From Paeniglutamicibacter terrestris (GTDB lineage Bacteria > Actinomycetota > Actinomycetes > Actinomycetales > Micrococcaceae), in NCBI RefSeq assembly GCF_012271785.1, contig NZ_JAAWVT010000001.1, forward strand, positions 868,001-932,000: 64,000 nucleotides of DNA. Reading direction: 5' to 3'. This document shows positions 15,443 to 57,544 of the stretch, piece by piece. The first letter of the stretch is position 1. Each line of letters opens with the position of its first letter. The position numbers and the translations under genes were made by a program. The notes below the pieces were generated by a model that saw nothing but the letters and a program-made list of their open reading frames with translations, made no database searches and was not told the DNA's origin.

Positions 15443-15587
15443 CTGATTCCTTCTGAATTTGTAACTGTCGAGCAGTACCGCTCCGAGAATGAGCTGCCAA
15501 TGACAAATACCAAATAGCATTGAACGAGCAGAACGTTTGTAACGGGGGCCCAGGGATCCGTCTCACGGAATCCTGGAAGTTCAATGG

Positions 15588-16535: not shown

Positions 16536-16797
16536 TATTTGCAACCTCCCAAGCCGTTTATCATCGACAGCAAATAGCCTTTCACGTTTTCCTTGATGTC
16601 TCGACTGTGACTCGGATTTGTTTTTTTGATTGCCCTGCTAGTTCCGAGCCCTCCAATCGGCTCCGTTACACCATTTCAGGATTCGCGTATGAGTACCGTG
16701 GTCGTTTCGGGAATTGACTAGTGCCATCCGCTTTGTGAACCTCTGGCCTACAATCCCAGCCAGATGGAAAGCAGCAGTACACGGCGAACAAAGTACT

Positions 16798-19700
16798 CTA
16801 AATTTGTCCCTTCAGCGCCGGAGCAAGCCCGCTGACCGCAGCATCCAGGACAGGAAGTGCCCGACGCCCGAATTCCACAAAATCGCTCTCATAAACCCGA
16901 TAGCCTGGAGCCTTCGCAAGCGCTGCTTCCTGTGCCTCATGCTGTTTCGGCATAGGAGTCTCCCTCTCTCGGAACCACAATGGGTGGCCGATGAGTACGC
17001 CTACCTTTTCGGAGTCGAGTAGGAGCATGGGTGCTGAATCCGGACCTACGAGTTCAACTCGAATGTCCTCGTGAATCCCCTTCGCGATGGCGCGGATTTC
17101 TGAGTCCCTACTGAACCAACGCTGAAGGTTCAATTCGAGTCCCGAGGACAAGTCCAACATGTCCAGCGCCAGCCGCCAGTCCAAGACTCCGTGTAAGCGC
17201 TGATTGTCCCAAGATCGGAGGCAATCCGGGCAAGAAGTTGAGCAGCCCTGGTGCTCGGCATCCTCAAATTCTGCCTGAAGGTTCTTTCGTGTTTCCCTCA
17301 GTAGATTTCCGAAGACGTCCGGCTTGGCAATCTGTGCCGCATAGCCGGCTCCGTTATCGAGAGTGTCGGCAAGGAAAACACGCGCAGATGCCACCGACCC
17401 CACCATTCTGTGTTGAAGTCCCGCTTGCATTTCCTGTGGATCGATATCCAGGGCATGTTTGGCCGCGGTTCGCAAGACTTCCGCCATTGACCACAGGCCA
17501 GCCTCACCTGCAGGCACCACGTGCGGCGCCGTTGGCATAAAGCCACCATTTGTAGCCAATCTGACGAAATCCACCGTCAGTGCGTCCGTAGTTCTAATCT
17601 CGCCAATCGCGCTCTTTCCGAGTTCAAGTCCCGTGGGCATTCCCCTCCACCCTCCGCGATAGAGTGCAGAATTAACCGCTACCACTGACTCGTCTTCGTC
17701 GGTTTTGACCAGATCGAAAAACCGTCCACGATTATCGTTGTACTGAAGGAGCTTTCCCTGTTCATAAAGCCTCAGCTCAACACTTTCAACGTGTTCACCC
17801 TCAGGCTCAGAACCCGTGGAAACGAAAGTCGGCAAGCTCTTGGACTGCGAACGCGACTGATCAATCCGGTACGGACGAGGCACGTATGTAGTACGGAATC
17901 CCAGAGGCTCGTAGAGCGTGAAGAGATCCATGCTCGTCCGACAACTCGGACAAACTTCCACCTCTGATTTGTCGATGAGTGTTGTGGAACACTGAGGACA
18001 GCTGGAAACTTGGTGCCCTTTCCCGAGTGGGTCACTGGGAACAATCTTTCCGCCCCGACGATCGTAGTTAACGAACCCGGCTGCGACGTGGACCATCCGG
18101 TCGCGGACGACTTCGGCACCGGGTGCATAGTTAGTAATGGCCATACTTAAAGGCCGGTCTGACACGATCTTACTTTCGAGAGACTTTGCCGTGGGGAACT
18201 TATCCCCGTATAGGTTTCGGACCCGCGTCGGGAACCCAAACATTGGCAGCAAGCCGCCTAGTGCTAACGATTTACTGAGTTCGGGTTCCGTAATATCTGG
18301 CTGCGCAATGATCCTGTCGATTTCGTTGACAACCTCACCACGTACCCACTGAATAACAGAATCCACGTCGGCCGCAGAGAGCCGCGTATGCGTAGACAAT
18401 CGATGCACAATCCCGCTGACCTGGTTGTTTGACGCAAGCCACGCAGCGATTTGAGATCTACGGGCAGACCATCCTTCCACTGTCCCGAAAGTACCGTGAA
18501 GACTGTCGGGTCCCCACTCAGGACGTGCAACAAGGGAATCAAACGCCCTCTTGAGTGCCTCTGCAGCGACAACCCTCTGGAGAATCCGGATTCGCCCAAG
18601 ATCTAAGAAGGGCTGAGGCGGCATATCTCCTGTCATGCGGTAGGCGTGGTTGAAGTAATACTCATCGTGCGCCGAGTCCCTACAGGACGTAATGGCGAAG
18701 GAGAACGCCTGGCCCGCGCGACCTGCTCGACCCACACGTTGCTGGTAGTTGAATCGTTGCGGTGGCATATTGGCCATGAGCGTTGCATTCAGCGAGCCGA
18801 TGTCGACACCGACTTCCATCGTCGTCGTCACGCTGAGGACATCAAGTTCACAGGTCAGCCGGTTCTCTTTGGGCGCCGGCAATTGGACGCCCTTGAACCA
18901 GCGTTGACGACGTCGCTGCTCGGCGGCTGGCTTCGTCTGTGCGGTCAATTCAGCAACGGCAATGCGGCGAACTTCCTGCTCGGCGAGCCACCCATAGTAG
19001 TCACGGGCATCTGCAGAAATGGGCTTGCGTACGAGAGTCGACGATTCGCATCCCTTGTTCGCACAAACACCTGCCGACCCGTGTAGGTGCTGGAATCCAC
19101 ACTTGACGCAAACCCACGCTTCACCGCCTGCCATGGCAAACCGGACCTTGCTCGTTCCACCATGGAGTTGCAGTACCCAACCATCGGAGACACCGGTGTC
19201 ACGCAGGATTGAATAGACCCACGTTTCAAGTGCGTCCAGGTCCACCGAATGCACGGTAGCTACCTTGGTCAGATACGACTTGATGACAGTAGGGGCTTTG
19301 GCTTCCGGCTTGTCTCCCGACCAAGAACCCTGGTATCTCTTCTCCAGCCCGAGCATGCGGACACAACTCGCTAGGATCTGCGAGCCCACTTCGGAAGGTA
19401 GCGGTCCAACATTTCCGATGGGGATATCGACTGGGAACCAAGCCAAGTGTGTCGATTCAACGTCACGTCGACCCGAGTCAAATACTTGGCGAGCAAGTTC
19501 ATCATCCAGCATCTTACGGAATCGGTCTTGGGCCTGCGCCGACGATGCAGCGTCGGCTTGTATCCACAGGTCTTTCTCGGGCGGAGCGAAGAACGTGTAC
19601 CAGGGTTCACCTGAAACATGTTGCGCCGCCATTGAGCTACCGGCTGGACTCAGCCCAAGCGCAATCATCTGGTTCTCGACTCGAGCCCGCAGGTCTCCCC

Positions 19701-22158
19701 AGCCGATACCATCCGCGGATTCTGACCGAGCCTTTTCGATCATGGCTTCTTGATCCGGTGTCGCATTCCCCATGTTGTGGAGCATCACGGCCATCAAGAG
19801 CATCGGGTTCGTGCCAACGATATGCTTTGCTTGGGCTTGTTCCTGCGCCGCGAGGGAAGCGGGGTCGGCCGAAAAACGCGTCAACAGATCAATGATGTTC
19901 AACTGAGCGGCTTCCTTAAGCCCCCGTCGCAGCATTTGGACCAAAATATCGCCATACTGGCGCGTTGCCAGTGAAGCTGCCGTGCGAGCTGCCGAATCCC
20001 TGTTATCCGTGAAGACAATTGTTCGGTAGTCTTCCGGCCGAGATCCCAGAGTACGAGGCAATTGGCGAAGATAGATTGACGTCGCCTGGGCCGGTGAAGT
20101 GGCGTGGCCTTGAAGAGGGGAATTTACCTGACCTTGCTTGAATTCCTCAGTTTGTCGGTTTGACTGGCCGCAGTGAGGACACTTAGAGGGGATAGCCGGA
20201 GCGTCACCTGACGTGGTTCCCCCTGAGACTTGTACGACCCAGCCATTGACCCCATCCATTGCTCCGACTTCCAACAAGCCAGACTTTTGCATTCTTGCGG
20301 GCGTCCAAGAAACCGTGAACCCCTGCGTCTGCCAGGTCTTGCCGGCGCCTACCGGTTGTTCGTCAGTCGCCGGCCAGAACCATCGATAGTTCTTACGTTC
20401 TCGCCTGGTGGCCAGCCCCGGAGCATCGCCGAGAACACCCGTGGGTGTTGCGCTCAGAGACTCAGTGTGGTGCGGCAACGCCAGCACGTATCCGGCAACA
20501 CTCGCATCACCACACTCGCTGCACAGGATGAGTTCCAAGACGCGCGAGCCGCAATCGTCGCAAACAGACAATGGCTGACCGAAGATCTTCCCCACCCGCC
20601 GTTGTTCGTCCTGGCGTTCAGTCGCTACACCTATGCATCCGTTGTTGGTGCATGCCCACAGGCCCGATAAAACACGGGCGAAAATGTGTCCTCGCAACGG
20701 TACCGAGGTGTCGGCACCGTTGCTAATCGCGTCGAAGACAGCCGTTAGCCCCTCGAGACCGGGATCGTCTTGTTCGAATAGGCGCTCAGCAACCGTCGTC
20801 AGATACTGAGCACGGTATCGTTCATCCGCAGGAGAATAGCAAGCACGCGCTACGGATTCCGACAGTTCCGAAGAACGGGATGCCAGAGTACCAAGTTTGG
20901 CGGACGCCAGAATTTGATCGCGGTTCAGTGCCGGACGGTCAGCGAGCTCCTTCGGTCGGCCAGCCGTAACAGCGAACGTAGAGCCATCGACACCGAAGAA
21001 CTCTTCAAGGAATTCAAGACCAGCTTCATTTGCGTCCAACGAGGCCGATGCGGCGACGATGCGCAGCTGAGGACTGTTCGGCTCTAAGCCCAGCCTGTCG
21101 AGCAACCGCCGCAACAGCAACGCGACCTCGCTGCCGGAGGCTCCACGATACGAGTGGAGTTCGTCGACTGCGAGCGTAAAGACGTGTTCTGGAGAAGATT
21201 CCAGCCACGCTTTGGTTTGCTCGAAGATGGGGTTCTCGAACTTTCTCATCAAGATGGCATTAATCATCGAGAAGTTTGAGACAAGGACGTCGGGAGGGTC
21301 TTGAACCATGTCCCAGCGTGTGACCATTTCATTACTAGTTGGATCCGTAAACAAGGCCAGGTCCGATTCTTTGACCTCAGCTGAATCCCGGAGGCTTGCA
21401 AACTCCTGTTCAAGCTCCTGGATTTCCTGGCAGACCGCCGAGACCATCGATTTGTCCTTGGCCGCGGGCAAGCGATTGGCACCAAGCGTCGCCCCGGTGT
21501 ATCGACCAAACCACAGGCGCGCTTGAGGTCGGTCGGAGGCGATTCGACGGAACGCGAGCCTCAAGCGAGTCAGCTGGTCCTCGACCAGGGCGTTAGTCGG
21601 ATAAAGGATCATCGCTCGAACCGCAGCCGGGCGGGATTCGCCCGCCCGCATTCGCTGGTACTTCGCGGAGTTTCCATGCCACCAGCATTCAACTGGTCCG
21701 GGCTTCGACCAAGCTTCGGACTCTTCAACCAGCCTGAGTAGGATCGGTAGCAACAGAGCTTCGGTCTTTCCTGAGCCGGTGCCTGAAGTTACGACGATAT
21801 TGTGTTTGCCGGCCTCACCCTTGCCTCGGTTAACGAGGATCGATTCGGCTTGGTGACGTCGCAAAGCCAGCCTTTGTCCGTCGACAACGTAGTCCCGGAA
21901 GAATGCCGAACCGACAATGCTTGCTACTTCTTCGGAGTAGCCTGCCTGGGTTGCCACGTCCATGAAGTCATCTGCCGCTGGATAAGGAAGCACGGGTTCC
22001 ACGAGTGGCTCCCGAAAAATCTGTCCTTCTTTTCCGACAAGGTCTTCACGATCTGCCGTGAGGCCTGGGGACCGGAGCCGATAATTCGTATTGAAGTACC
22101 GGAGGAAAGCCTCCCGCAGATCATTTGAAACGCTGATGGGGTGCGGCTTAGAAGTCAT
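16798..22158 (-). CDS. DUF1998 DEAD/DEAH-box helicase, DruE/DpdJ-like
   Basis: A 1786-residue SF2 helicase. Domain order: Q-like RRHQAES (101), Walker [10 protein letters not shown] (125), motif Ia [12 protein letters not shown], motif II DELH (332-335), motif III AASAS instead of SAT, several zinc-ribbon cysteine pairs (CDDCG, CSECG, CPHCG, CVKCG, CPQC, CPSC). Then come helicase motif [16 protein letters not shown], motif [14 protein letters not shown], and a DUF1998 C-terminal cluster [19 protein letters not shown]. Size and architecture match DruE of Druantia and DpdJ of dpd clusters. Its ATG overlaps the stop of the 1033-aa gene (ATGA), the arrangement of the DruH-DruE pair in Druantia type III. 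Predicted role: ATP-driven DNA translocation in antiphage defence. Confidence 0.85.
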
Positions 22159-25100
22159 GACGTCAGCTTTCGGCTCAGGATGGATACGGTTTCGGGGCTC
22201 AAACCCTCATAGGTCATCGAATGGAAATGGGGTTCGGCAGTGGGCAGTTGTCCAGCTGCAGTTACTGCTACTCGACCGTAGAGCCCGGGCAGCTCCGCCC
22301 CCAACGGGACTCTGAGGTTCTTGGTCAACGGGTCATAGGCAATCAGGAGGCGACCAAGAATGTTCGCCGCTAGGTGCTTACCAAGCTCGGCCCATACGCG
22401 GGCACCCGTCCCGGATTCAATATCTTCAACCGTTCGAAGGTAGTATCCAGCACCGTGAACCCGGGGCAAACGATATAGGCCCGGTAAGCCCGCAATTTCA
22501 ATTTCTGCCCAGGTCGCATTTCCTACGTTGAAATACTCGTAGGTTGCAGCCATTGGGAATGGAGCCCGAGGCAGCTCCGCGACGATCTGGGAAAGCGGAG
22601 GCAGTGCCGCGGCCAGCTTGTGAGCCGCATGAGGCGTGATGACCTCGGAATCGACGTGGGCTTTCGCCACAATTGGCATGGTTTCTGGTCCGATTCCTTC
22701 GATGAAAGAGAAACTGCGGGTTTCAGCGTCCGTAACGCGAAATTTTCCTCCGACATCTACTACTGATTCTCGAAGTTCTTCTTTCTCAGATTCGGTCCAG
22801 GGGCCGGCCAACAGCCAGTCACCGTTGTCCAGACCCGCGATACCTTGGTATACCGATTCCCATGCCACCACATCGAGATTCCCATCGCGCTCCACTTCCA
22901 AGAATGCAATGGATTCGAGTGACATCAGCAATTGACGTTCAAAAAGTGCCGAATCTTCAAGCTGACGGGCCAATACTGAAAAGTCCCGTCTCGTACCGCA
23001 TCCCAAATAAATCAAGGCGTCTAGGAATGCGCTGAGGTCCGGACCTGTGGCTTTTACGACCGGCTGCGGAAGCGCCGCGCGTTGCGGGGAAACGGCAACT
23101 TGAAGTTCGTGTTTCTGGGCGTTCTTGATTCTGGTTGGTTGCCGCTTACTCATTCCGCATCCACGGCACTCCCCATACATCCACGCGGTTTTAGGGTACT
23201 TTCCGTCAAAGCTGGGGAATACGAATACATGTGCGCCGGTAATGATGCAAGAATTTTCGGCAGGACCGGGGAGCCGAAGCTTTTTTCGGGACTGTGCAAC
23301 TCTGTTGGGACCAGACCACTGAACTCGGATAGGAATCGGGGCGCTATTCGAATCGTCGTCGAAGGGCTCGACATCAACTGTTGTCCCCGCAATCCAACCA
23401 ATTGCGATGTCGCTGTGTTCAATGCTTTTCAACGGCCACAGGGGTTCACCGACCGCATGAGCAAGTGCTCGTGGTTCCGCTATCGTGTTCGGTTCACCCT
23501 CGTCGGCACCTCGCAACTTGATCGACAAGTTTTGCAGCGTTGATAGCTTGCGTCGCAACGACAGCGTGAAGTCCGTTTGGCCATTCCGCAAGTCATCCAC
23601 GCGGAGTTCCACTGGCGGTTGAAGGTCGCTTTGAACCAACACCTCGGTGGCGCGTAGCGAGTCAGGGTTGCGATCGACGCGGAAAAGATCAACTTTCGAG
23701 TTGTCGTCCGTCGTAATCACGAGGGTTAACGGCGCGTAGGCGCTCCAACGACGCGTCCTACCGGGCAGGCGCAACCCCCCTTGAAGCGACATTTGAGTTG
23801 TCATTCGAGGTTGGAATGCCGAGAGTTCGGGGCTGATTAATAGCTCATCTGCCGGCGACCGAAGGAACGTCACGTCCACATAAGCAATCCAACCCGGTGG
23901 GATCCCGTCCTTGAATCCGCCAACAATCTTGGAGAATCCCGGTTGTGCTGCATCATCGAGAATACGTTCCACACTCGATGCCAAAGCATGGGTGTCCTTG
24001 ACCAAGATTCGAGTCTCTGTTCCGGCCAGCGCTCGGTCCACTTCAACATATGACGCGGTCATGGAGTCATGTGCAAAAATCGCAACGTTTCTGGGTACAC
24101 GCCGGAGCACCTGTTTATCCGACGTCGTAATCCTGATTTCCGCGCCAACCATTGATTGGGGATCAACCTCGTGGTCCCCGAAACTCACTCCAAACGTGTT
24201 GTTCCCCGCCGGACGAAAACTTACTTCAAGTTGAGACCCATCTTCGGCTTCAACAGTTCCCGAGCCTCCATTTTGGATACCTTGCATGACAACGAGCCCG
24301 AACTTAGATATCGATGTCAGGAACTTACGTTCCGAACGCCATGTCAACAGGCAACGGGTACCTCTATTGCTTGTGCGACCCCCACTAGCCCGCCCTACTG
24401 GGCCATCCCATGCGGAGAACTCTGCCAACGCCAGTTCAGTCACACGGTCTTGGTTTCCCGAGACTGCCCATATCTTACGAAGCGCTTGATTGGCGCTACC
24501 TCCTGACGCATGAAGCCAGATATCAAGAGACGCATGCATTTCAGCATGGGAAACGGCAGCACCGGACACGAATCCTTGCTCGTCGAAGAACTTCTCAAGG
24601 TTTCGACGTTCAGTGTCTCGAATCAGCGCCTGTGAGATCGGTAGGCCAACGTATCGGTGCATTAACGCATAGGCACTTGGGAGTCCCCGGTCTCCAACGT
24701 TATCTTCAAGCCATACGCTCAGTGCCTCCCAGTAGGCTTCGCTCGATTCCATGAATGAGATTCGCAGCCTAGGACCCTCGCCAGCTGGGATTCGGAGGAT
24801 TCTTTCCAGCTGGGTGTAGTAACTCCCGGCATGTTGCTCTCCCTTGGCGCTAAGGGCGCCCATGCTCTCGGCTGCAATGGACAGCAACATCAGCAGAGCA
24901 ATATTGGGAGGCGCCAAAACTTCACGTTTGGCCTTTACCGCCGCCCGACGACCAAAAACCCACCGTTTGGTCATCATGTCGAATTCGGCAAAACTTGCCC
25001 GATGACTTTCTCTCCAACATAACTTCGATCTGACGGCTGCGGCCAAGGACTCCACAGCCTCAGCATTTGGTTGCAGACCGAGTGCCTCACAGGCACTCGC

Positions 25101-25256
25101 GAAACCCCGATCATCGTGGTCCAAATAAACAAGTTGGCCGGCCCGGTCCGCGTTGAAAAATGCCGCGCTCAGCGCTTCATTCCATTCCGAATAGCTGGCT
25201 GCCACACCACTAGTCAGAACACCCCCAGTCATCAGACCGAAGCCGGTTTCCCCCAT
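22155..25256 (-). CDS. Large protein of unknown function, DruH-like by position
   Basis: A 1033-residue soluble protein without a recognisable enzymatic motif. Visible features are a helical N-terminal third, a beta-rich middle third ([32 protein letters not shown]), one zinc-knuckle-like CRGCG near residue 715, and a C-terminal winged-helix-like stretch ([20 protein letters not shown]). AAGGGGGAA lies eight bases before the ATG; a TTG two codons upstream is the alternative. It overlaps the 1786-aa helicase gene by four bases and is 47 bases after the UvrD gene. Size, lack of motifs and coupling to a DruE-like helicase fit DruH of Druantia type III, but I could not verify homology. Confidence 0.6.
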
Positions 25257-25303
25257 TTTCAATTCCCCCTTGAATCGTTTTTCAATTATTTGGCCAGGCT
25301 ACG

Positions 25304-27580
25304 TCAACTGGCCGACACTTTGCCGGAAGCCGCGGGCAACAACCCTGAGGGGTTCCCGCTCCAGCTAACCACCAGTTCGTCACGTGCTCGAGTGGCTGCC
25401 ACATATAGCAAAGAACGCTCACGAAGCAGTGCGTCATTCTTCTCGGCTTCGGCCAGACCATCGGTCGCCAATGACAATGGAACCGCGCCCTCATTAACTC
25501 CGAAGAGTATGACCTTGAAGAATTCCATTCCCTTTGCGCGGTGCATCGTCATGTATAACGGTTTGGTGCCGTCTCCGGGGTGGTCCACATCCCTGACTTC
25601 GACCTTGCGTTCGGCCATCCCGGATTGGAGTTTCTGCAACTGGTACTTGGTGCGCGCGATAATACCGATCATGTTCCCCTGCACATCTTGGTCCAACCAC
25701 TTCGTGATGTGTTTCTGGACGTCGTCCAGTTCATCTGCAAGAGATGCGGCGCCGGCTTCAGACGGGTTCGGACCGCTGCGTGCCGAGTGATAGCCGTTGA
25801 CTTCTTCCGGTGTACCTTCGAAGTCTTCGATTTCGGCGCCCTTGAGGAGGCGGACAGCATAGGCAAGATTCTGGGCGGTGGTGCGGTAATTCAGTGACAG
25901 GCGGCGTGATCGCCCCACGATGGCAATTCCGTACCTGGACAGTGGAACTTTTTGTCCATAAATGCGCTGATGCGAATCTTCCGCAATGAACAAGTCGTTT
26001 TGTCCTGGGGCGGCCAGAGCTCGCAAGAACAGCCAATGGGCCGCGTGCAGATCTTGTGCCTCATCAATGAGCACGTGGTCGGCGATTGCAGGCTTTCCGG
26101 CATCGGTGCGGTGACGCAGCAGCACAGCGGAAACGGCAGCCAACTCGGGGAACGAGATGTTTCCTGCTACGCGTTGTTCCTGCCGGAATGCCTCGAAAAT
26201 CTTCCAGACACCAAGCCGCTTGGGACGCGTCAAGGCAGTGCCGCGGCCCACCCGTGGCACCTTGACGTAGGCATCCCGTGAGGCAACGAAATTCGCCAAG
26301 ACCACGGATATGTATTCTTGTTCCAGGAATGTGGGGTTGGCCAGTTCCGGGTCCAGTCCATGGTCCGTGCTTTCCAGCGCGTCCTTCCACTGTTGTGCAG
26401 TCACTCCGCTGGGTCGGAAGTTGGAAGATGCGTGCGCTTCCCCAAAGACTTCCTTCAGCGCTGCTTTACGTTCATCCGGTGTCGCAGAGTTAAAGACCTG
26501 CGAGACCAAGGAGTCAACACCGCAGGTGAATGTCCCCTGAGTTCCAGCTGTCTGTGCCAGCTGAAGGTTCGAATCGAGCTTGCGCAGGCTCTGGTTAAGA
26601 GAGGTAGCCAAAGTGCGGGTGAAGGTCGTAACAATGATTCGAGCTGCCGGGTTGCGCTCAGCCAGAGTCTTGGCTCGGTGTAGGATCACCACGGTTTTTC
26701 CCGTTCCCGCTCCACCGGAGAGCCTGAACGGACCGTTCCAGGAACCGTCGGCATAGCGGCGTTGCTCGGGGTGAAGGAAGGTGCGCCAGGCATCGGCACT
26801 GCCACCTTCGATGACATCGCGCAGAGCGTCCGGTGTGTCTCCAATAAATGCAAACTGCAGTTTCGCGGCGTCCTTACCGAAGCCGTCGGCGATCACGTCA
26901 TCTTCGTGCTTGTCCTGCTCCAGTTCCTCTGGAAGTGTCCGCTGGTCGATCAGGCCCAGGTCTTCTTTGCTCTCATCCAAGCTCTTGCCCGAAGCCAAGT
27001 CGAGGATCAGCAGCCCTTGCCAATCCGGCGCCTTGTCGGTGACCTTGTGGAAGGCTTGTGCCGTTGGAGCCAAGAGCGCCTTACGAGCAATGATCGGGTC
27101 AAGGCCAGCGGACTCGATCAGGAAATCGAGCTTGTACCCGTGTTCCGCCAGTCCGTTAGTCCAGGTAAGTTCGGTGCGTGGAACGCTCGGTTCGGCAAAG
27201 GGTTCCTTTGCGATCCCCTGCGACTCGACTCGCTCTTCCTCGTTCTCCGGCATCGTTTGTTCGATGATTTCCGGAATACCGAAGACGGGGTTCATCTGCA
27301 GCACACTGCGCTGTGCAATGTCTATGGCCTTGTCGTGTGGCCACGTTCCGTAATAGACGTAAGTCGGGGCCGAAGCGGTGTTCAACTTGAACAAAACGGC
27401 ACGCCACATGTCATTAACACGGCCGGTGCGCACTCGAGGGTCCGAGACGTTCTTAAGTGGCTCGATGTTTAGCCCGTGGGTTGTATCGTCAGACTGAAGC
27501 TTCTCAAGGAAGTTCATGACCAACGATTTCACCGAGTTGTCGAGCTTGTCCTTAGTTTTTGCGAAGACTATTCCAGGCAT
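25304..27580 (-). CDS. UvrD/Rep-type SF1 helicase with N-terminal RelE/ParE-like domain
   Basis: A 758-residue fusion. Residues 1-90 read like a RelE/ParE-fold toxin domain: a helix (DKLDNSVKSLVMNFLEKL), then RTGRVNDMWRAVLFKL and YVYYGTWPHDKAI, the arrangement of strand, strand, YxxxxHxxA. After a linker, the SF1A helicase has Walker A LSGGAGTGKTVV (289-296), motif II VLIDEAQDLH (506-509), motif III EDSHQRIYG, motif IV LSLNYRTT, motif V MHRAKGMEF and motif VI LLYVAATRARDEL. Such fusions occur in defence loci; the toxin-like part may bind nucleic acid or other subunits. Two bases separate it from the upstream 2213-aa gene, so it belongs to the operon. Confidence 0.85.
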   Translation of the reverse strand: MPGIVFAKTKDKLDNSVKSLVMNFLEKLQSDDTTHGLNIEPLKNVSDPRVRTGRVNDMWRAVLFKLNTASAPTYVYYGTWPHDKAIDIAQRSVLQMNPVFGIPEIIEQTMPENEEERVESQGIAKEPFAEPSVPRTELTWTNGLAEHGYKLDFLIESAGLDPIIARKALLAPTAQAFHKVTDKAPDWQGLLILDLASGKSLDESKEDLGLIDQRTLPEELEQDKHEDDVIADGFGKDAAKLQFAFIGDTPDALRDVIEGGSADAWRTFLHPEQRRYADGSWNGPFRLSGGAGTGKTVVILHRAKTLAERNPAARIIVTTFTRTLATSLNQSLRKLDSNLQLAQTAGTQGTFTCGVDSLVSQVFNSATPDERKAALKEVFGEAHASSNFRPSGVTAQQWKDALESTDHGLDPELANPTFLEQEYISVVLANFVASRDAYVKVPRVGRGTALTRPKRLGVWKIFEAFRQEQRVAGNISFPELAAVSAVLLRHRTDAGKPAIADHVLIDEAQDLHAAHWLFLRALAAPGQNDLFIAEDSHQRIYGQKVPLSRYGIAIVGRSRRLSLNYRTTAQNLAYAVRLLKGAEIEDFEGTPEEVNGYHSARSGPNPSEAGAASLADELDDVQKHITKWLDQDVQGNMIGIIARTKYQLQKLQSGMAERKVEVRDVDHPGDGTKPLYMTMHRAKGMEFFKVILFGVNEGAVPLSLATDGLAEAEKNDALLRERSLLYVAATRARDELVVSWSGNPSGLLPAASGKVSAS

Positions 27581-27582
27581 TG

Positions 27583-34224: not shown

Positions 34225-37200
34225 TTCACGAGCTCCTCGATCTGCTTCTCTGCAAGTAGCTGTTCGAAGTGCGCATAGGCCGTTCGCATGTCTTCTTCCC
34301 GATCAAAACCTCGGAATGGGAACTCAAAGACGTATTCGACGCCGCTATGCGGGTGGGCCCAGCTACGTTCTTCGACGCTAAGACTCTCTCCGCGCTGTCG
34401 ATAAAGCTTGTTGATCTCGCCCGGCACTTTGCGCCCGTTGGCGTCGTAGAGATCATTTTGTTCATACCCACGCAACACTGGGAACTGGGTGCGATAAATC
34501 GTGCAGAGCTCGTCGACTGTCAATTCGAGCGTTATCGCCGCCAGAGCGTCAAGTTCAACTTGCAGATGACGACGTTGCGCAGCTACACGAACAGCCATTT
34601 CCGGCCGCCAAGGCTTGTCCATGGAACCGTTCCAGATATGCGCATAAGCGTCCGTCAAACAAATAAGAGCGGCGGTTCTGCTAACGATCTGTTGCTGAAG
34701 CAAACCTCCGAGCTTAATAGGCAGACCATCCACAACTGAGCCGTAGAAGTGACCCAATGAACCAGCTTTCGCCAAGAAGTCCACCACTATCGATCCCAAA
34801 AGCCCGGCACATTCCAGCATAGTTGCACTGTTATCAAAGACAGTCCCATATCCTGAAATGACACCATTTACGTGAGCGGTGCCAGGCGGCACTATGCTCG
34901 GATAGAACGTACGAACATTTGAAGTTGCTGCCATAAGACGCCAACTAATTCGGAAGTGGTCCCGAGCCGACCTTTTTTCCCCCTCGAACTCCCAGGTCGT
35001 ATAGTCACGATCGTAGTTCACGCTGCCATCACGCACCGGCTGGTAGCTGGTACGCGGAATGAAATCCTCGGGGAGCGCTTCCAAGTCAACCTCGATGTAG
35101 TCCTGGTTGCTTTTCATCGTCGGATTCGGCTCTTTATAAAACGGGTTCGCTACGGTGAAGTGTGGACCCTGAAGGATCACGTCGTCCCACGAGTTATTAA
35201 TCTTGGACCCGACTTCGAAGTATCCCTTCTTACGGTCAATTGATTCGTCCCACCCCCGGGAGTATTGAAGGCCCAGCTCGCGCACGCGTGGTGCCTTGCT
35301 GAGCTTCTCCAGTACGTTCATGCTGGCCCGATTGACCGGATAGACCATGCGTGCCTGCAATGGCGATGTCCCCGGCTCGTCGAGGATGTCGGCCCATACC
35401 TTCAGGACGTCAAGGTCGACGTTGACGATTCGTTCGGGATGCGGGCGGGTATCCCACTTACCCTCAGCTGTCTTCAGGCCTGGGACTTCAGTTCCGCCCT
35501 CATGGGCCAACGACCGCGCGACCGTATCCGGGTGATACAGCGATGCTGCCATCTGAAAATGCGGATTCTCCCGACTCGCTCCATAAACATGGACACCGTA
35601 ATAAACACTGTCGTGGACCTCAAAAAGTAGCATTGCATTGCGGAACTGCCAGTGACGGCGCAGCCTGCGATATGTTGCGGCCCGCAGATTATGGGCCTTC
35701 TTCTCCGTAAAGTGCGATTCCGGATGGATCAGTGCAACCACGCCATCCGGTGAAGCGCTCATCCATGTTCTCGCCATGAATGACCGATACAGGTCGGGCT
35801 GCAATCCTGACAATACGGGATACTGCGAGGCCGCGCCCAGGAATTCGGCGAGGACAGGTGTGGGCACGGCGGCATCGATATAGTCTCGTTTGGCACCTGG
35901 CAGCGCGAGAGTCTCTTCGCGCTTCTTTCGGATGACGGCCTGGGTTGGCTTCTCCACCAGCTGCCACCAGGCATCGTGCTCAGCCAGCAGTGCGGCTTCA
36001 TCAGAACGCGGACGAACCCACGGCGGATTACCGACCTGCAGATCAAAGCCACCGCGGCCAAACACCGAAGCGAACTCTAATTCCCAGTGGAAGAACCCCT
36101 GTTCTTCGGCAATTCGATCGCACACAACAAGCCATGGGAAGGACTCGACGAGTTCTTCCGAGTCCTTCATACCGGCCAGCGGGAAATCGTAGACTTCAAA
36201 CATTGCCAAGTCGTTCCATCCAGCTGCAGAAAGTACGCTCGTCTGCCCCGCACTCTGACCAAACTTGCGTGGTCCCTTGGCCGACTCCGCGATCGGTTTA
36301 CCTAGGATGGCTTCGAGCGCATCGATCCATTCGTCCATGCAGGGTGGTTCAACGACGCTTTCTGTCAGCGGCCAGAACCACAGTGCATTCCATGCATTCA
36401 TGACCCGTTTGAGCCGCTGATAGGCGCCGTTCGGATCGCTCAACGCAGACTCGATCTCGGCACGCGTGACAGTTGTTGATTCCTCAGCGCGCTCGTGTGG
36501 CCAGTAGTCCACGAATCGTTTCGCCTGCGATTCAGCTATCTGAAGTCGACGAAGCGCGACTTTCCACAGCACCTCAACACGCTCAGACAGCGACTTTAGC
36601 CGCTCGATCTGCGGCTTCTTCAGCGCCACGCGTGTGCTCTTGGCCCACGTTTTGAGAGCTTTCTGCTCCTCAGCAGCGAGATCCTTGACCTCTTTGGCAT
36701 CGGACGCAGCGCCCCACCCCTCACCCGGTAGCAAGAAGTGGTGAATCCGTCCGTCGACAGAAGAATCTACAGAATCGTTTTCAAGCGCTTCAACAAGCCC
36801 CTTGAGCGGATTAGCTTGAGGTTCATCGGTGAGGTGGCTTTTTGACCTCACCGCGTCCACCGAATAAGTCGCCCGGCGGGCACCAATGAGTGAATTGCCA
36901 CGGCGAAGTCGAAGTCCAAACCACGGCGCCTGCAGGTCTTTCGCCATGGTGTCGAGCCACAGCGAGACTTCTGCAAGTTCAACCGCCGTCGAGTTGAGGT
37001 CGACACCGTGCACTTGGTGCAAGGCGATCTGCGCCTTGACCTTTTGAAGTTCCTGTGGGTATTCGTCGGCAGGGATCTTGACATCTATCTCATCCTGCTT
37101 GCGCTTCAGGTATTCCCCGGCAAGCTGACGCACCGCTTCGATCGCGAACGCGCCGGATCCAAGTGCAGGCTCACAAACGGTGAGCTTCAGAATATCATCA

Positions 37201-38849
37201 GCCGACGTCGGCGTTCCATTTTGGTCCAAGAGTTCCTCAATGGCCTGGGACACGACGAACGTCGTAAGGACCTCGGGAGTGTAGTAGGACGCGGACTGCT
37301 GACGTTCGCGGCCAGCGAGGCGGAAAACGAACGAGCCCTTCGGGTGCACGACGGTTTCAAGCTCACCGGTACGTTCATTTCGTTCCTTGATGAAATGCTT
37401 GGACTCGATCGATTCGGACCGATCGGTGGGGACCACCCATGACCCCTTAGAAGCATCACCATCCTTGGCGACCTCATGCAGGTCAGCTTCGGCGATGAAG
37501 CCCGTGTAGGACATCAGTCCCTCGTACACGGCGCCCAGCTGGTTGATACCCAGCTCCGCGTAGGAGATGAAGCCACGGTCTTTGCCCCGTGATTCCTTGC
37601 TCAGCAGCAGGTACTGCAGCACGCTCTGAAGTTCCGAGTTGCTGAGCTTGGTCTCATTGATCAGCGATGTGGCCTTTGGGTCGAAGAGGTCGGCCTTTAG
37701 CGCATCGAATCTCAGTCCTTCATTGGCAGATGTATCTGTTCCCTCATCCAGACCGGCAACGGGGTCGTGTCCGCTATCCACGAGCTCAAACAGACCGTTC
37801 AGGGACTCGAAAATGTGCGTTCCGCGCAGCGAACTGTCCTCATGGATCTCAACCAGCGTCAGTTCTCGCAGTCGGTCAAGGCCATAGCCCTCGTTGTATT
37901 CGCCGGCTCCCACCGGCAGCACTCCAAGCTCGGGCGAAGCCTCCGCGTAGAGCAGGAACAGGATGCGGTAGAGGAAGCGCAGCGACTGGCGCGCTAGCAT
38001 TTGACCGTCGATTGCTTCGAGCTGGGTATCTGTTAGGGCACGTCGGGCGAGGACATCGTTGGCGATGATTTCAATGGAGCGGCGAATGCCTTCGCGCAGG
38101 TCCTTTGACACACCCACCGTGTGCTTCACGGAGCTCTCGAGAATTTCATCCCACCAGATGGTCCCGTCAGGGGAGGGCATTAGCGCGTCTCGGCCGAGGG
38201 CTGCCAGGAAGCGGTCAATCTCTTGGCCCTTCTTCCCGTCGTTGCGGTCCGCCACCAACAACACATCGGCTGCAAGGTACCGTCCTTCTGCCCAGCGTTC
38301 TTGTTCGGTGAGCACCAGCCACTTCCCGGCCATGGCAACGATGTACTTTGGCGGCGTGTCGGCGAGGTAGAGCTCGGAGATGAGCTTTGCAGTCGTCCGT
38401 TCGGTATCTTCCTTGCCGTCGGCGACGACACGTCCGAGCGGCTTGCTAGCGCCCAGGAAGTCCTCGATCGAATCCGCAGGCGCGGATTCAAGGAGCAGGA
38501 TCTCTCCCCCGGCCCCGTTCCAAACAAACGGAACCACGGTCTCCGTGCCGCTGCGCTGTGCGGTGATTGCCGAGACGACGCCGTTGAATCCGAGCGCGGT
38601 CCGCAGCAGTTTGTATGCGTCATGGGCACCTGTTGGATCCTCGGCCAGCTCGGCCAGGCGGACCTGCAGCTCTCCCCGGTGCTGGGAGAACCTGGTCAAT
38701 GCCGTCTCATGACCGGCCTTGCCACCTTCATCCCATATTTTACGGCGCTTGAGCACCTCGCCCTGGAAGGATTCCTTCGTGGAGTCGGTGGTGAAATAAT
38801 GTTCGCTGATCCAGTCTTCACCGACGATGATCGAGTCAAAGGACGGCAT
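34221..38849 (-). CDS. Class I N6-adenine DNA methyltransferase (DrmMI/PglX-like, Eco57I-type fold)
   Basis: A 1542-residue protein. The methyltransferase core starts with the family phrase SASYYTPEVLTTFVV (about 520-534), has SAM motif I CEPALGSGAF (559-568), HGVDLNSTAVELAEVSLWLD (614-633) and the catalytic motif IV QVGNPPW (938-944), which indicates N6-adenine methylation. About 500 N-terminal residues and a long C-terminal part probably form scaffold and target-recognition domains. I find no PD-(D/E)XK motif in the N-terminal part, unlike type IIG enzymes, so it should only methylate. One base separates it from the SNF2 gene and four bases overlap the DUF1998 helicase gene. In DISARM and BREX such enzymes mark self DNA. 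Confidence 0.85.
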   Translation of the reverse strand: MPSFDSIIVGEDWISEHYFTTDSTKESFQGEVLKRRKIWDEGGKAGHETALTRFSQHRGELQVRLAELAEDPTGAHDAYKLLRTALGFNGVVSAITAQRSGTETVVPFVWNGAGGEILLLESAPADSIEDFLGASKPLGRVVADGKEDTERTTAKLISELYLADTPPKYIVAMAGKWLVLTEQERWAEGRYLAADVLLVADRNDGKKGQEIDRFLAALGRDALMPSPDGTIWWDEILESSVKHTVGVSKDLREGIRRSIEIIANDVLARRALTDTQLEAIDGQMLARQSLRFLYRILFLLYAEASPELGVLPVGAGEYNEGYGLDRLRELTLVEIHEDSSLRGTHIFESLNGLFELVDSGHDPVAGLDEGTDTSANEGLRFDALKADLFDPKATSLINETKLSNSELQSVLQYLLLSKESRGKDRGFISYAELGINQLGAVYEGLMSYTGFIAEADLHEVAKDGDASKGSWVVPTDRSESIESKHFIKERNERTGELETVVHPKGSFVFRLAGRERQQSASYYTPEVLTTFVVSQAIEELLDQNGTPTSADDILKLTVCEPALGSGAFAIEAVRQLAGEYLKRKQDEIDVKIPADEYPQELQKVKAQIALHQVHGVDLNSTAVELAEVSLWLDTMAKDLQAPWFGLRLRRGNSLIGARRATYSVDAVRSKSHLTDEPQANPLKGLVEALENDSVDSSVDGRIHHFLLPGEGWGAASDAKEVKDLAAEEQKALKTWAKSTRVALKKPQIERLKSLSERVEVLWKVALRRLQIAESQAKRFVDYWPHERAEESTTVTRAEIESALSDPNGAYQRLKRVMNAWNALWFWPLTESVVEPPCMDEWIDALEAILGKPIAESAKGPRKFGQSAGQTSVLSAAGWNDLAMFEVYDFPLAGMKDSEELVESFPWLVVCDRIAEEQGFFHWELEFASVFGRGGFDLQVGNPPWVRPRSDEAALLAEHDAWWQLVEKPTQAVIRKKREETLALPGAKRDYIDAAVPTPVLAEFLGAASQYPVLSGLQPDLYRSFMARTWMSASPDGVVALIHPESHFTEKKAHNLRAATYRRLRRHWQFRNAMLLFEVHDSVYYGVHVYGASRENPHFQMAASLYHPDTVARSLAHEGGTEVPGLKTAEGKWDTRPHPERIVNVDLDVLKVWADILDEPGTSPLQARMVYPVNRASMNVLEKLSKAPRVRELGLQYSRGWDESIDRKKGYFEVGSKINNSWDDVILQGPHFTVANPFYKEPNPTMKSNQDYIEVDLEALPEDFIPRTSYQPVRDGSVNYDRDYTTWEFEGEKRSARDHFRISWRLMAATSNVRTFYPSIVPPGTAHVNGVISGYGTVFDNSATMLECAGLLGSIVVDFLAKAGSLGHFYGSVVDGLPIKLGGLLQQQIVSRTAALICLTDAYAHIWNGSMDKPWRPEMAVRVAAQRRHLQVELDALAAITLELTVDELCTIYRTQFPVLRGYEQNDLYDANGRKVPGEINKLYRQRGESLSVEERSWAHPHSGVEYVFEFPFRGFDREEDMRTAYAHFEQLLAEKQIEELVK

Positions 38850-38850
38850 A

Positions 38851-41709
38851 TTAGTTGGTTCCTTCCGAAAGGCCAGCGGCCGGAGTGTTGCGAGGGACGA
38901 TCACCAGCAGCGGGCGTATCAGCCGCTGCGCGGGCACGAGTGACTCCACGATCTTCTGTTCATCGGACACCCGCTTTCGTTGGGTTTTAACCGAGTTGGT
39001 CTGCGCCAGGTCCAGGGATAGCTGTTCCCAACCTTGTGCACGTTGGCGCCAGGTGTCGAGACGTGCATTAGCCGCTTCTTCAGCCGCCGCAAACGTCAGC
39101 TCCATGGCTTGGGCACTGCTGTCCACTGCCAGCGGGATCAGTGCTTGCAGACCATTGAGGTCGGCGACGGGGCCGGGGTTGGCGGCCCTGGCGCTAAGGC
39201 CGATCTCGGCCAGATGCGCTCCCAAGTCCGGAAGCGGCGTCGGGATCCGGAAGTCCGGATTGGCCGGGTTCGGGAAGTCCACTGTGTAGAAGGCCTTGGA
39301 AATCACCTGGCCGCGCTTGTTCATCAGCGTCCCCATGAGCAGTACTTGTGGGGCATCAACTTCACCACGCACGATGAGAACCTGGCTGCGGGATATTTCC
39401 GCCAGGGCCCGATCGCTGGCCCAGTCCAGGACCGGGTGCAATGGACCCAGGAAGTGGGCTTCGGGCCACATGCTGTCCTGGGATTCCCGCGCACGGTCTA
39501 GCTCCCGCTGACCGGCGTCAATCGATGTGGCGAGCTTGAGCGTCTCCGTGACGTTGCGTTCACCAAGGTAGTCCTGCGGTAGGTGACCGAGCCGGTGTTG
39601 GAGGTCCCGCGGAGGCGTCAACTCCGCGATGCTGTGGGCCTTGTGGACCTGCCATCCGATCTTCTTGGCCGGATCGGCGAAGGCCTGGGTGAGTGCCTCG
39701 TCGAGGAAGTCTAGGTCCGATTTGTAGAGGCCAAGGGGCGTCGCGACGGGGACCCCGACGGCGGTCAGCTCCGTTGCTTCCGTTTCCACGTCGAATTCGT
39801 TGAACCAGGCGTCCAAGCCTTCGACCTCGTCTGGTTCGTGGACGACTTCCTCGAATTTCTTCTGGCCAAGCAATACCTCACGGATGGCATCTTCTTCCTG
39901 GGACACTGAATGCTTGCCCATGAGCGAAGCGACGTCCTGAAGTACGGAATGAGCTTCGTTCTCACGTTCCATGAGCCTGGCGATGACCTTGAGGTCACCG
40001 GAGAATTGTGAGTCGTTTGGATCCAGCAGGAGCGTGGTGATCTGCGGGCTGTGCTTCTGCCCGTAACGGTCAATACGACCGTTACGCTGCTCGATGCGGA
40101 TCAGGCTCCACGGGATATCGAAGTGAATGAGGTGGTGGCACTGGGAATGCAGGTTCACACCTTCTGAAGCAACGTCGCCGGTCACCAAGACACGCAACTC
40201 GGAGTTACCGCGCTTGAATTTATCGACGATGTCTTGTTGCTCGACATCACTAAGACCACCATGCAACATCTCGATGTTCTCGGCCTTGAGCCCGAGTGCC
40301 TTTGGGAGACTCTCTTTGAGCCATTTGAGGGTGGCCACACGCTCGGCGAAGACAACCGCGCGCATCGGTGACGACTTCTTCACCCCGATGCTCTTCAAGT
40401 AAGCAACGAGCTCGTTGTACTTCGCTGATTCGCCAGTGTTCGAGGCTTCGGCAAGACGCTGCAGCCCTTTGAGGGCTTCGACCTCTCGGGCCTCCGAGGC
40501 TAGGTTCCCATCCAGCTTCTTCAGTCGTTCCTTGACGGTTTCCGCTAGCGCGGCAGGGCTGGAGAGGAAGGCCTTGGCCAATGTCCAGCCGAAGAGTCCA
40601 GGGGTGTTTCCAGAATAGGGCGATGCACCGTGCTCGGGGTAGAGCCAGGTTGCCGAGAGCTCCTGTGCAACGGAGTTTTCCGGTCCGGAGGCAGGGATCA
40701 GGCGATTGTCGGGTTCGCTCCGCTCTGCCCAGTCGGCACCAACTTCCTGCGCAACTTCGGGGCTGTGCCTGTGGCGGCGAATGATCAGACGTTCAACGTC
40801 CTTGGCCTCGAAGGAACCATCCGGGCGGACCACCGTGGGATCAAGCAAACGCAGGAGCTCTGCGAACGAATCGTTCTTGCCGTTGTGCGGAGTGGCAGAT
40901 GCAAGGATGAGAGCTTCCGTGTTGGGAGCCAAGAGACGAGCAAGCTCGTTATTTTGCACACCCACGTTGGTGACGTTATGGGCTTCGTCGATGACGACCG
41001 CGTCCCAACGCAATTTGCTCAAGTGCGCGCGGTATCGGGCGCTCTTGAGGGTGTCGATCGAGATGATTGCACGCTTGTAGTAGGTGAACGGGTTGCGTGT
41101 TGCCGGCAGCTTTTGCCGCACCTTTTGGATGCCTGCAGAATCCAGCCGTACAAACGGAAGCGCGAAGCGGCACCACATCTCATGCTGCATCTGCTCCAGC
41201 ACGTGGCGGGGCGTGACAATCAAGATTCGCTCGCCGCGTCCGCGCTTGACCAATTCGCTGAGGATCATCCCGATCTCCAGCGTCTTGCCCAGGCCCACTG
41301 CGTCCGCGATCAGGATGCGAGGACGGATGTTTTTTGGATCCAGCGCCTTCTGTACTGCCAGGTGCTGGTACCTGAGCTGGTTGGCGAGCATGCCGGTGGA
41401 TACTGTCAGGTGCTCATCAAATTGCGGGGTCGGTGTCTTGCGCAGCGTGGTCTCCAAAAAGAGCCGCGCCTTGCGGTACCCGGGGCTGTCGTCGGCCACA
41501 ACAGTGGACATGCGTGGGTCAACGACATGAATCGTGTCGAGGGCCGAATAGAAAGCTGCGGTCGTATCGCGGACCAGCTCCGTCAGGCCTTGAACCCTCA
41601 CCAGGGTTCCGTCCACCGAAGGTTCGGTCGCTGTTACCAGCCATTCTTCATCCCGAACCCGGACTACGGATCCTGGTGCAATATTCAACCCGACCGCGCT
41701 TGCTGGCAT
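38851..41709 (-). CDS. SNF2-family helicase/translocase (DrmD-like)
   Basis: A 952-residue SWI2/SNF2-type ATPase, first gene of the operon. Motifs in order: NQLRYQHLAV (Q-like), Walker A IADAVGLGKTLE (136-143), VVIDEAHNV (DEAH 241-244), ILASATPHNGK (about 271-278), AVVFAERVATLKWLKE, VTGDVASEGVNL, and motif VI EQRNGRIDRYGQ (541-551). The N-terminal 60 residues form a small beta module (GSVVRVRDEEWLVTATEP), as in RapA/DrmD-type proteins. Placement directly before an adenine methyltransferase copies the drmD-drmMI pair of class 1 DISARM. ATG follows GGGGGAACC. It likely translocates on double-stranded DNA without unwinding. Confidence 0.87.
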   Translation of the reverse strand: MPASAVGLNIAPGSVVRVRDEEWLVTATEPSVDGTLVRVQGLTELVRDTTAAFYSALDTIHVVDPRMSTVVADDSPGYRKARLFLETTLRKTPTPQFDEHLTVSTGMLANQLRYQHLAVQKALDPKNIRPRILIADAVGLGKTLEIGMILSELVKRGRGERILIVTPRHVLEQMQHEMWCRFALPFVRLDSAGIQKVRQKLPATRNPFTYYKRAIISIDTLKSARYRAHLSKLRWDAVVIDEAHNVTNVGVQNNELARLLAPNTEALILASATPHNGKNDSFAELLRLLDPTVVRPDGSFEAKDVERLIIRRHRHSPEVAQEVGADWAERSEPDNRLIPASGPENSVAQELSATWLYPEHGASPYSGNTPGLFGWTLAKAFLSSPAALAETVKERLKKLDGNLASEAREVEALKGLQRLAEASNTGESAKYNELVAYLKSIGVKKSSPMRAVVFAERVATLKWLKESLPKALGLKAENIEMLHGGLSDVEQQDIVDKFKRGNSELRVLVTGDVASEGVNLHSQCHHLIHFDIPWSLIRIEQRNGRIDRYGQKHSPQITTLLLDPNDSQFSGDLKVIARLMERENEAHSVLQDVASLMGKHSVSQEEDAIREVLLGQKKFEEVVHEPDEVEGLDAWFNEFDVETEATELTAVGVPVATPLGLYKSDLDFLDEALTQAFADPAKKIGWQVHKAHSIAELTPPRDLQHRLGHLPQDYLGERNVTETLKLATSIDAGQRELDRARESQDSMWPEAHFLGPLHPVLDWASDRALAEISRSQVLIVRGEVDAPQVLLMGTLMNKRGQVISKAFYTVDFPNPANPDFRIPTPLPDLGAHLAEIGLSARAANPGPVADLNGLQALIPLAVDSSAQAMELTFAAAEEAANARLDTWRQRAQGWEQLSLDLAQTNSVKTQRKRVSDEQKIVESLVPAQRLIRPLLVIVPRNTPAAGLSEGTN

Positions 41710-42007
41710 GGTTCCCCCATAAATATCTAGCCGATGTACAGAGGCGAAATCTCATGCAATTCCAGCATCGCCCCCCTTATAGATACTAGGCCAGGGGCTG
41801 GTTGAACCTTCGACCATTGACTGCATGCCGCGCTAAATGAATCGCGCTATGAGTGAAATTCACTCCAGCCGTATAAGATCACCAGTTCGCCCGTTTCCGT
41901 TTGCCCAACTTTGAACCATAAATGCGCCGTAGATACCAGGGCATTCGTTGCAGGAGTGTTCTTCCATCGCGGTGGGGGAATGAGAAGCCGGAGGAGCGGA
42001 ACCGCAT
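41710..42007. other. Intergenic region upstream of the six-gene operon
   Basis: The 298 bases between the second giant helicase gene and the SNF2 gene hold the presumed promoter of the operon. Apart from the palindrome at 41851-41865 and a neighbouring pair of short direct repeats (CGCGCTA near 41829 and 41843), I see no gene. No regulator gene of the WYL/BrxR type is adjacent. Confidence 0.5.
41851..41865. promoter_or_regulatory. Palindromic operator candidate upstream of the operon
   Basis: GAGTGAA-A-TTCACTC is a perfect odd palindrome with seven-base arms, 142 bases upstream of the SNF2 start codon. Two CGCGCTA direct repeats lie immediately to its left. It could bind a dimeric repressor; no candidate regulator is encoded next to it. 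Confidence 0.4.
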
Positions 42008-48610: not shown

Positions 48611-48731
48611 TTCCCTACCCAAAACTTCTTATCATGTACCGGCCGGTCTTCGGCTGCAAGCTTCATTGACCGGCGGATTCCAACCAAGGCAGACTTGGCA
48701 AACTCTCCGTTCGAGGGCTTATCCCCGGGCA

Positions 48732-55417: not shown

Positions 55418-55595
55418 TATTCCATCCCCCAAAAACGTAGCGACCCCACGGCAAGTGAGCCTTAGTAACCTTCTTTGAATCTAATGCACCGGGCCTACAA
55501 CACCTGACAGCAACCGCTATTTCCATGGCAGAACTTTGCCCGCGTACAGGCTGTTGGAAGTCGCCAGGCCCGTACACCCCCAGCTTGAGTACCGT

Positions 55596-57473: not shown

Positions 57474-57518
57474 CGTTCCGCCCACCGGATCAATCCCCTT
57501 TGTGTTCTGCATGCACGT

Positions 57519-57544
57519 GATCAAACTTTAGCGTTATGTTGATC
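57519..57544. promoter_or_regulatory. Inverted repeat in the divergent promoter region
   Basis: GATCAA (57519-57524) and TTGATC (57539-57544) form a perfect six-base inverted repeat about 45-70 bases upstream of the coiled-coil gene's start. It could be an operator; the evidence is weak. Confidence 0.25.

Follow-up and report, generated by a model that had tools for sequence, protein, structure and literature searches.

The window analyzed here, a 64,000-nucleotide stretch of the Paeniglutamicibacter terrestris genome (positions 868001–932000 of a contig in a 4.34 Mb genome; family Micrococcaceae), contains six genes that are predicted to form a single transcript in which two known anti-phage modules are stacked, an ARMADA type II system in front and a minimal Druantia system of type IV composition behind it, and the two modules probably cooperate, a reading to which we assign a probability of about 0.6. 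ARMADA is the disARM-related Antiviral Defense Array described in a preprint of September 2025 (PMC12458937). Gene identities, motifs, gene order and the recurrent neighborhood could be read directly from the sequences compared. An earlier reading of the stretch from its letters alone (the sequence-only reading) had described the six genes as a DISARM-like front end joined to a Druantia III-like pair, and had added that they might be an undescribed composite or a DISARM-related array. The guess of a DISARM-related array fits ARMADA well. The idea of an undescribed composite holds only in part, as both ARMADA II and Druantia have been described, whereas the in-line layout of ARMADA II and DruF(L)-DruE was found nowhere in a search of the open-licence literature (supplements lay outside it). 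The same search returned no report of a recurrent meeting of ARMADA and DruF-DruE in Micrococcales. The parts are known, and their stacking and side-by-side recurrence in several related bacteria look new.

All six genes are encoded by the minus strand, from position 41709 to 16798 (Table 1), and inspection of the sequence found every open reading frame (ORF) intact and without internal stop. From gene 1 to gene 6 the spacings are +1, −4, +2, +47 and −4 bases, and the coordinates, four-base overlaps and short gaps listed in the sequence-only reading are thereby confirmed; its view that two layouts share one apparent transcript was also right. The gap of 47 bases between genes 4 and 5 presumes that gene 5 starts with the ATG at 25256, and a longer TTG start would reduce it to 41 bases. 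A simple consensus scan detected no promoter- or terminator-like site around this junction (25000–25600), which is weak evidence because the same scan was also blank upstream of gene 1 and after gene 6. Co-transcription of the six genes is predicted from their layout. Pfam recognized an SNF2 helicase in gene 1, an Eco57I/MmeI-type methyltransferase in gene 2, a DEAD helicase with MZB/DUF1998 and a tail in gene 3, a UvrD helicase in gene 4 and a DEAD helicase with MZB in gene 6, and gave no match for gene 5. When the proteins were searched with the hidden Markov models of PADLOC, as the sequence-only reading had proposed, the six genes were not all assigned to one described system.

Genes 1–4 are, judging from homology, a complete ARMADA type II system, ArmA-ArmB-ArmC-ArmD. 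Aligned with the proteins of Escherichia coli ATCC 8739, ArmA is 35% identical over 837 positions (residues 9–812), ArmB 35% over 1388 (residues 156–1475), ArmC 30% over 1918 (residues 4–1834) and ArmD 31% over 758 (residues 21–750), so that the likeness extends over most of each protein, and the order of a BrxHII-like helicase, a PglX-like methyltransferase, a YprA helicase and a GajB-like helicase is that of ARMADA II. In addition, ArmB matches the PADLOC model PDLC03611 with 1619 bits over residues 1–1534. The E. coli locus was located by plasmid tblastn and megablast and was taken from NZ_CP022959.1, a derivative, not from the NC_010468.1 of PMC12458937. According to the preprint, ARMADA II was tested in E. 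coli ATCC 8739 and NCTC 12900, needs all four genes, defends without cell death, and depends on or is aided by eight residues, K136 and D236 of ArmA, G605 and N971 of ArmB, K110 and D234 of ArmC, and K266 and D454 of ArmD (PMC12458937). All eight are identical in the window proteins in pairwise alignments to ATCC 8739, which has the same letters at the positions published for NCTC 12900.

The C-terminus of ArmC is predicted to be an active Vsr-type nuclease: the pattern D, DG, H, D, KR is invariant in all 21 aligned ArmC sequences (shorter matches and duplicates excluded). The tail also gave a weak MTES_1575 match below the cut-off (E 0.0015), and no relative among PDB sequences at E 1. The RelE-like domain of ArmD rests on the published description of this protein (PMC12458937), since the window N-terminus has no Pfam RelE match and its alignment to E. 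coli ArmD begins only at residue 21. The window system differs from the published ARMADA II in being actinobacterial, in an operon that apparently runs on into DruF-DruE, and in a longer ArmC (2213 versus 2113 amino acids), whose tail repeat seems, by eye, to be duplicated. ARMADA II is further characterized by a BrxA-like helical domain that follows RecA1 in ArmC.

Genes 5 and 6 are DruF and DruE according to family models, and DruF carries a DruL-like domain as a C-terminal fusion. Gene 5 matches the PADLOC model DruF2 with 646 bits over residues 22–1010 (numbered from the longer start) and DruF4 with 117 bits, and no DruF relative was found among PDB sequences at E 1. Its C-terminal 201 amino acids gave a weak DruL4 match of 31.6 bits (27–32 bits across searches), and where relatives of DruF are split, the second ORF matches DruL4 as well, with 54.6 bits in genome G494 and 27.8 bits in G706. 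Because both the DruF tail and these second pieces match DruL4, the pair is assigned the composition of Druantia type IV, which comprises DruE, DruF and DruL in PADLOC (PMC8565338), with F and L fused. It shares the DruE and DruF families with that type, and differs from it in having no separate DruL gene between or beside the two and in its position behind ARMADA. The sequence-only reading had named genes 5 and 6 DruH-DruE, a Druantia III pair, which does not agree with these results: the 10 families that gene 5 matched in PADLOC, all of them listed, include DruF models and no DruH, and a BLAST comparison with E. coli DruH returned nothing at E 0.001. A one-model genome search for DruH, run without a positive control, was also negative.

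Gene 6 scores 1504 bits with DruE2, 1310 with DruE4, 548 with DruE1 and 387 with DruE3. The best single models of the pair, DruF2 and DruE2, are those of Druantia type II (DruM, DruF, DruG and DruE), from which it differs in that the window genome has no DruM by the model used and no DruG lies between the genes. The DruM model is a broad cytosine-methyltransferase model, and it gave no match anywhere in the genomes of the window strain, P. antarcticus or Zafaria. It fires in 12 of 19 genomes with DruF, at a distance of at most 4 kb from DruF-DruE in nine of them, as well as in 10 of 14 controls. DruG had no match in any of 19 genomes in a search in which no positive control responded, and no gene is present between DruF and DruE. 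The catalytic pattern of ArmC was found, by eye, in none of 12 DruE tails, some of them incomplete sequences, and DruE therefore seems to have no working nuclease of its own. This agrees with the predicted inactivated Vsr domains of the Druantia I and II helicases (PMC12458937).

Table 1. Features of the six-gene locus, in order of transcription from the presumed promoter region.
Feature	Position	Strand	Basis
Gap upstream of ArmA, 298 bases, presumed operon promoter region	41710..42007	-	Sequence inspection; no sigma-70 consensus found
ArmA, BrxHII/RapA-like SNF2 helicase, 952 amino acids	38851..41709	-	Homology to E. coli ArmA; PADLOC DrmD/BrxHII
ArmB, PglX/type IIG-like adenine methyltransferase, 1542 amino acids	34221..38849	-	Homology to E. 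coli ArmB; NPPW and S-adenosylmethionine (SAM) motif present
ArmC, YprA-family helicase with MZB/DUF1998 and Vsr-type PD-(D/E)xK tail, 2213 amino acids	27583..34224	-	Homology to E. coli ArmC
ArmD, GajB/UvrD helicase, 758 amino acids	25304..27580	-	Homology to E. coli ArmD; N-terminal region RelE-like per published description
ArmD-DruF junction, 47 bases	25257..25303	-	AGGGGG before DruF start; P. antarcticus junction very similar
DruF with fused C-terminal DruL-like domain, 1033 amino acids	22155..25256	-	PADLOC DruF2 and DruL4 matches
DruE, Druantia II/IV type YprA helicase with seemingly nuclease-dead tail, 1786 amino acids	16798..22158	-	PADLOC DruE2

The same six genes occur in the same order in Paeniglutamicibacter antarcticus, with identities of 97, 67, 88, 88, 69 and 79% for genes 1–6, and this repetition argues that the order is not due to chance. 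The question of conservation raised by the sequence-only reading thus has a mixed answer, in that the order is conserved elsewhere and yet intact in only one further genome found, Zafaria holding a decayed remnant. A family sample of 295 genomes contained ArmC in 19 (E at most 1e-100) and DruF relatives in 33, corresponding to 34 loci when the split gene of G494 is counted once. Apart from the window there are 33 loci, and the flanks of 29 of them were examined, G483, G343, G536 and G498 being left out. DruE adjoins DruF in nine of the 30 loci including the window, and the remaining 21, all from one genus, g204, show no DruE match in the roughly 9 kb that follow DruF downstream. Among the nine, ArmABCD stands in line upstream of DruF-DruE in two (the window and P. 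antarcticus), ArmABCD is divergent from DruF-DruE at about 0.3 kb in G519, and ARMADA remnants are present in two, Zafaria cholistanensis and G310. The Zafaria ArmD is broken, with its first 141 residues gone and the rest in two frames, and ArmA-C were not found there, though its DruF and DruE are still open. In G310, an open ArmD is split from DruF by IS110 and IS3-type genes, and a weak ArmC-tail-like ORF is present (best E 0.003). A scan of named genomes with two peptide patterns reached four loci only.

Both the ArmD tree (23 rows) and the DruE tree (13 rows) unite the window, P. antarcticus and Zafaria in one branch with 100/100 support and place G310 and G519 outside it. Possession of both modules requires three changes (gains or losses) on each tree, and the well-supported branches force at least two changes on the ArmD tree and at least three on the DruE tree.

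The DruF-like protein of the 21 loci of genus g204 (about 30% identical) has no DruE partner, and in all 21 loci compared its gene is divergent from that of an SNF2 helicase, for which the NCBIfam SCO1167/SCO6262 family is the best match, under its cut-off. Several of these loci have, by eye, purine-synthesis genes nearby. A non-defense or ancestral use of DruF in this genus is possible.

In a wider sample of 297 genomes from the order Micrococcales, which overlaps with the family sample, DruF matches were detected in 15 genomes, strong in 13 and weak in G843 and G426 (the flanks of these two lie outside the neighborhood comparison), and ArmC was detected in 29. Each of the 13 strong matches has DruE after DruF. 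Four genomes contain ArmC as well as a strong DruF match, and the modules are adjacent in each of them, in line in the window, convergent at about 2.7 kb in G743 and about 4.9 kb in G654 (gaps measured from match ends), and in reverse in-line order, DruF-DruE and then ArmABCD within 1 kb, in G666. With phylogeny ignored, the probability of at least four shared genomes is 0.028 in the order sample, and that of at least three is 0.015 in the family sample. Across the phylum, the DruF2 model matched in 4 of 296 genomes. Among 72,556 plasmid records, ArmC was detected in 30 (E at most 1e-50) and DruF in two (E at most 1e-10), and the two sets have no record in common. Of the two DruF plasmids, the one from Alisedimentitalea has no annotated ARMADA gene within 12 kb. 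No DruF relative emerged when viral contigs were scanned with sequence patterns.

Druantia is not the only neighbor of ARMADA. With both samples pooled, DrmA of DISARM was detected in six of 44 genomes with an ArmC match (ArmA, ArmB and ArmD being checked only where flanks were fetched). DrmA-DrmB lies beside the ARMADA operon in three of the six, convergent at about 1.5 kb in G339 and G346 and on the same strand at about 4 kb in G668, and on another contig in the other three. On the Tsukamurella tyrosinosolvens plasmid NZ_LR134452.1, one strand reads UvrD-DrmA-DrmB-ArmA-ArmB-ArmC(split)-ArmD-UvrD, with a 35-base gap before ArmA. This run, which includes a single SNF2 helicase and a single PglX-like methyltransferase, places a DISARM core in line with ARMADA II. 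A 223-base gap separates ArmA of E. coli ATCC 8739 from DruH-DruE upstream of it, and ARMADA II and Druantia III are reported to act in synergy against some phages. The window resembles this pair in that ARMADA II adjoins a co-directional second YprA-helicase system, and differs in that DruF-DruE is downstream, follows a 47-base gap and is of another Druantia type. Three kinds of YprA-helicase module (DruH-DruE, DruF(L)-DruE and DrmA-DrmB) thus adjoin ARMADA II, an observation that cuts both ways, as it would be expected if ARMADA II favored a second YprA module and also if defense systems simply clustered. A more speculative proposal, which we consider distinctly unlikely, is that ARMADA II serves as a docking platform to which another YprA-family helicase module is joined, that the partner varies by lineage among these three, and that ArmA-ArmB and the ArmC nuclease serve both; the window would then represent a one-transcript stage, in which a nuclease-dead Druantia works through ARMADA as a six-part system.

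For the stacked and cooperating modules, we infer an anti-phage function at the window locus in which methylation has a role. ArmB would methylate the host DNA as a self mark, and the ArmA SNF2 motor, together with ArmC, a YprA helicase whose Vsr-type nuclease is predicted to be active, would attack unmarked invading DNA, with ArmD (a GajB-like helicase with a RelE-like domain) as an obligatory helper. In the related DISARM system, DrmAB is described as reading DNA structure, with an ATPase that methylated DNA slows down (PMC9142583). DruF, together with the DruL part fused to it, would be a likely sensor or regulator of infection, and DruE may load on single-stranded parts of replicating phage DNA and open it; the DruE of Druantia III is reported to be a helicase-nuclease that loads on DNA containing single strands, with DruH as its likely sensor (PMC13192584). 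A DruE without a nuclease could either block replication or pass the DNA to ArmC or to host nucleases for cutting, and the two modules would cover different stages of infection.

The two modules may instead be independent defense systems that are chance neighbors in a defense island, their shared orientation and small gap being due to insertion behind an existing promoter, with no functional coupling between them, which we consider unlikely and nevertheless weigh seriously. Several observations favor this view and count against cooperation. The window holds several other defense-type genes, and DruF-DruE occurs without ARMADA in several genomes: no ARMADA gene was found in the stretches fetched at four of the nine family loci (G550, G494, G323 and G504) or within 10 kb of DruF-DruE in two Arthrobacter genomes from the scan of named genomes, and 9 of the 13 order-sample genomes with strong DruF have no ArmC match. 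The in-line order is present in only two of the 19 ArmC genomes of the family, and G843 holds ArmC and its weak DruF match 0.69 Mb apart. The DruF-DruE pair also seems to be autonomous, because it stays open in Zafaria where ARMADA has decayed, and ARMADA is joined by a third system, DrmA-DrmB, in three of the six ArmC genomes with DrmA. On the other hand, the modules are adjacent in all four order-sample genomes with ArmC and a strong DruF, whether convergent, reversed or in line, to which the family sample adds the divergent G519. As a control, PglZ of BREX is as common as DruF (15 of 297 genomes); it co-occurs with ARMADA in one genome, where the two are on different contigs, and in no genome with a strong DruF. 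Since this control is small, clustering in defense islands stays a live rival.

Coupling could also be tighter than we propose, with the six genes forming one integrated system in which DruF-DruE, having neither a methyltransferase nor a nuclease, relies on ArmB to mark self and on the Vsr nuclease of ArmC to cut. The missing DruM match in the window genome, P. antarcticus and Zafaria, set beside a model that fires in most DruF genomes, the DruE tail without the catalytic pattern and the very similar ArmD-DruF junction in two species would all suit such a system; against it, Zafaria keeps DruF-DruE with ArmA-C not found, and the close relatives G550 and G494 likewise lack DruM, with genomes in which ArmC has no match. 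Loss of DruM therefore does not follow from ARMADA, and the idea that ArmB replaces DruM is weakened. We regard full integration as quite improbable. The original proposal of a DISARM front end with a Druantia III pair is almost certainly wrong, and its origin can be traced in PADLOC-DB 2023, which spreads genes 1–4 over DrmD, type IIG, DruE and GajB. The best labels there are DrmD for gene 1 and DruE3 for gene 3, DrmMI is the third best for gene 2, and no ARMADA label appears among the matches listed; these scattered labels explain the impression of DISARM. DISARM class 1 does have related SNF2, methyltransferase and YprA/DUF1998 proteins, but its DrmA and DrmB are separate genes, whereas gene 3 carries the helicase and MZB/DUF1998, the DrmA-like and DrmB-like parts, in a single chain. 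Moreover, gene 1 reaches 342.6 bits with DrmD against an NCBI equivalog cut-off of 610, the best model of gene 2 is type IIG, gene 5 is a DruF and gene 6 a DruE2/4. The window genome has no match to the DrmA model PDLC02575 at E 1e-20, and DrmC, noted as missing in the sequence-only reading, was indeed not seen among the six genes. On balance, two stacked modules that probably cooperate remain our preferred reading.

Although ArmA is 97% identical between the window and P. antarcticus, their ArmB proteins agree at about 93% up to residue 650 and then at 24–72% per 50 residues, and their ArmC proteins (88% overall) drop to 36–62% at residues 300–450. Such abrupt divergence, in protein pairs that otherwise agree at about 90%, suggests an exchange of DNA-specificity regions. 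A coupling of ArmB and ArmC specificity was considered and rejected: a partial Mantel test over 17 ARMADA loci gave r 0.47 (p 0.0005), but in a sliding control another ArmC segment (1001–1100) did as well (r 0.42), and on removal of P. antarcticus the signal at ArmC 301–400 disappeared (0.21 to −0.06), and that at 401–500 persisted (0.46 to 0.37) without being the highest. Only the swap-like pattern between the two species stands.

Other defense-type genes surround the locus. Upstream of ArmA, two tandem giant proteins of 2204 and 2212 amino acids (42008–48622 and 48794–55432, minus strand; 37.6% identical to each other) both contain DUF4011, AAA_11/AAA_12 and MTES_1575 nuclease domains (PADLOC PDC-S37/Hhe), and the second has an extra Swt1-like HEPN domain; the first is also found upstream of ArmA in P. 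antarcticus, with 97% identity over the last 384 residues. Upstream of these giant helicases lies a 642-amino-acid protein (55596–57524, minus strand) with no Pfam match and weak HEC-07/NsnC matches, and further on an Mrr-type restriction protein (59230–60255, plus strand; PDC-S02, 351 bits) is encoded beside an OGG-like DNA glycosylase gene (60315–61049). DruE is followed by an HNH protein (15588–16544, minus strand) related to phosphorothioate-DNA restriction enzymes (67.8 bits versus a cut-off of 180), and an HNH gene with 72% identical DNA likewise follows DruE in Zafaria. On the left side of this defense-rich stretch are a NO VEIN C-terminal-like protein (14165–15520) and an ISL3-type transposase (12143–13000), both on the minus strand.

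Until now, the link between ARMADA and Druantia has come from sequence and from one synergy study in E. coli. The presence of a different Druantia type in an apparent ARMADA II transcript, together with repeated meetings of the two modules in Micrococcales in more than one orientation, would argue that selection favors the pairing of YprA helicases, which would then be more than a peculiarity of a single E. coli island. In addition, the window offers a compact locus for testing cooperation and for asking whether a Druantia helicase that lacks a working nuclease can borrow one.

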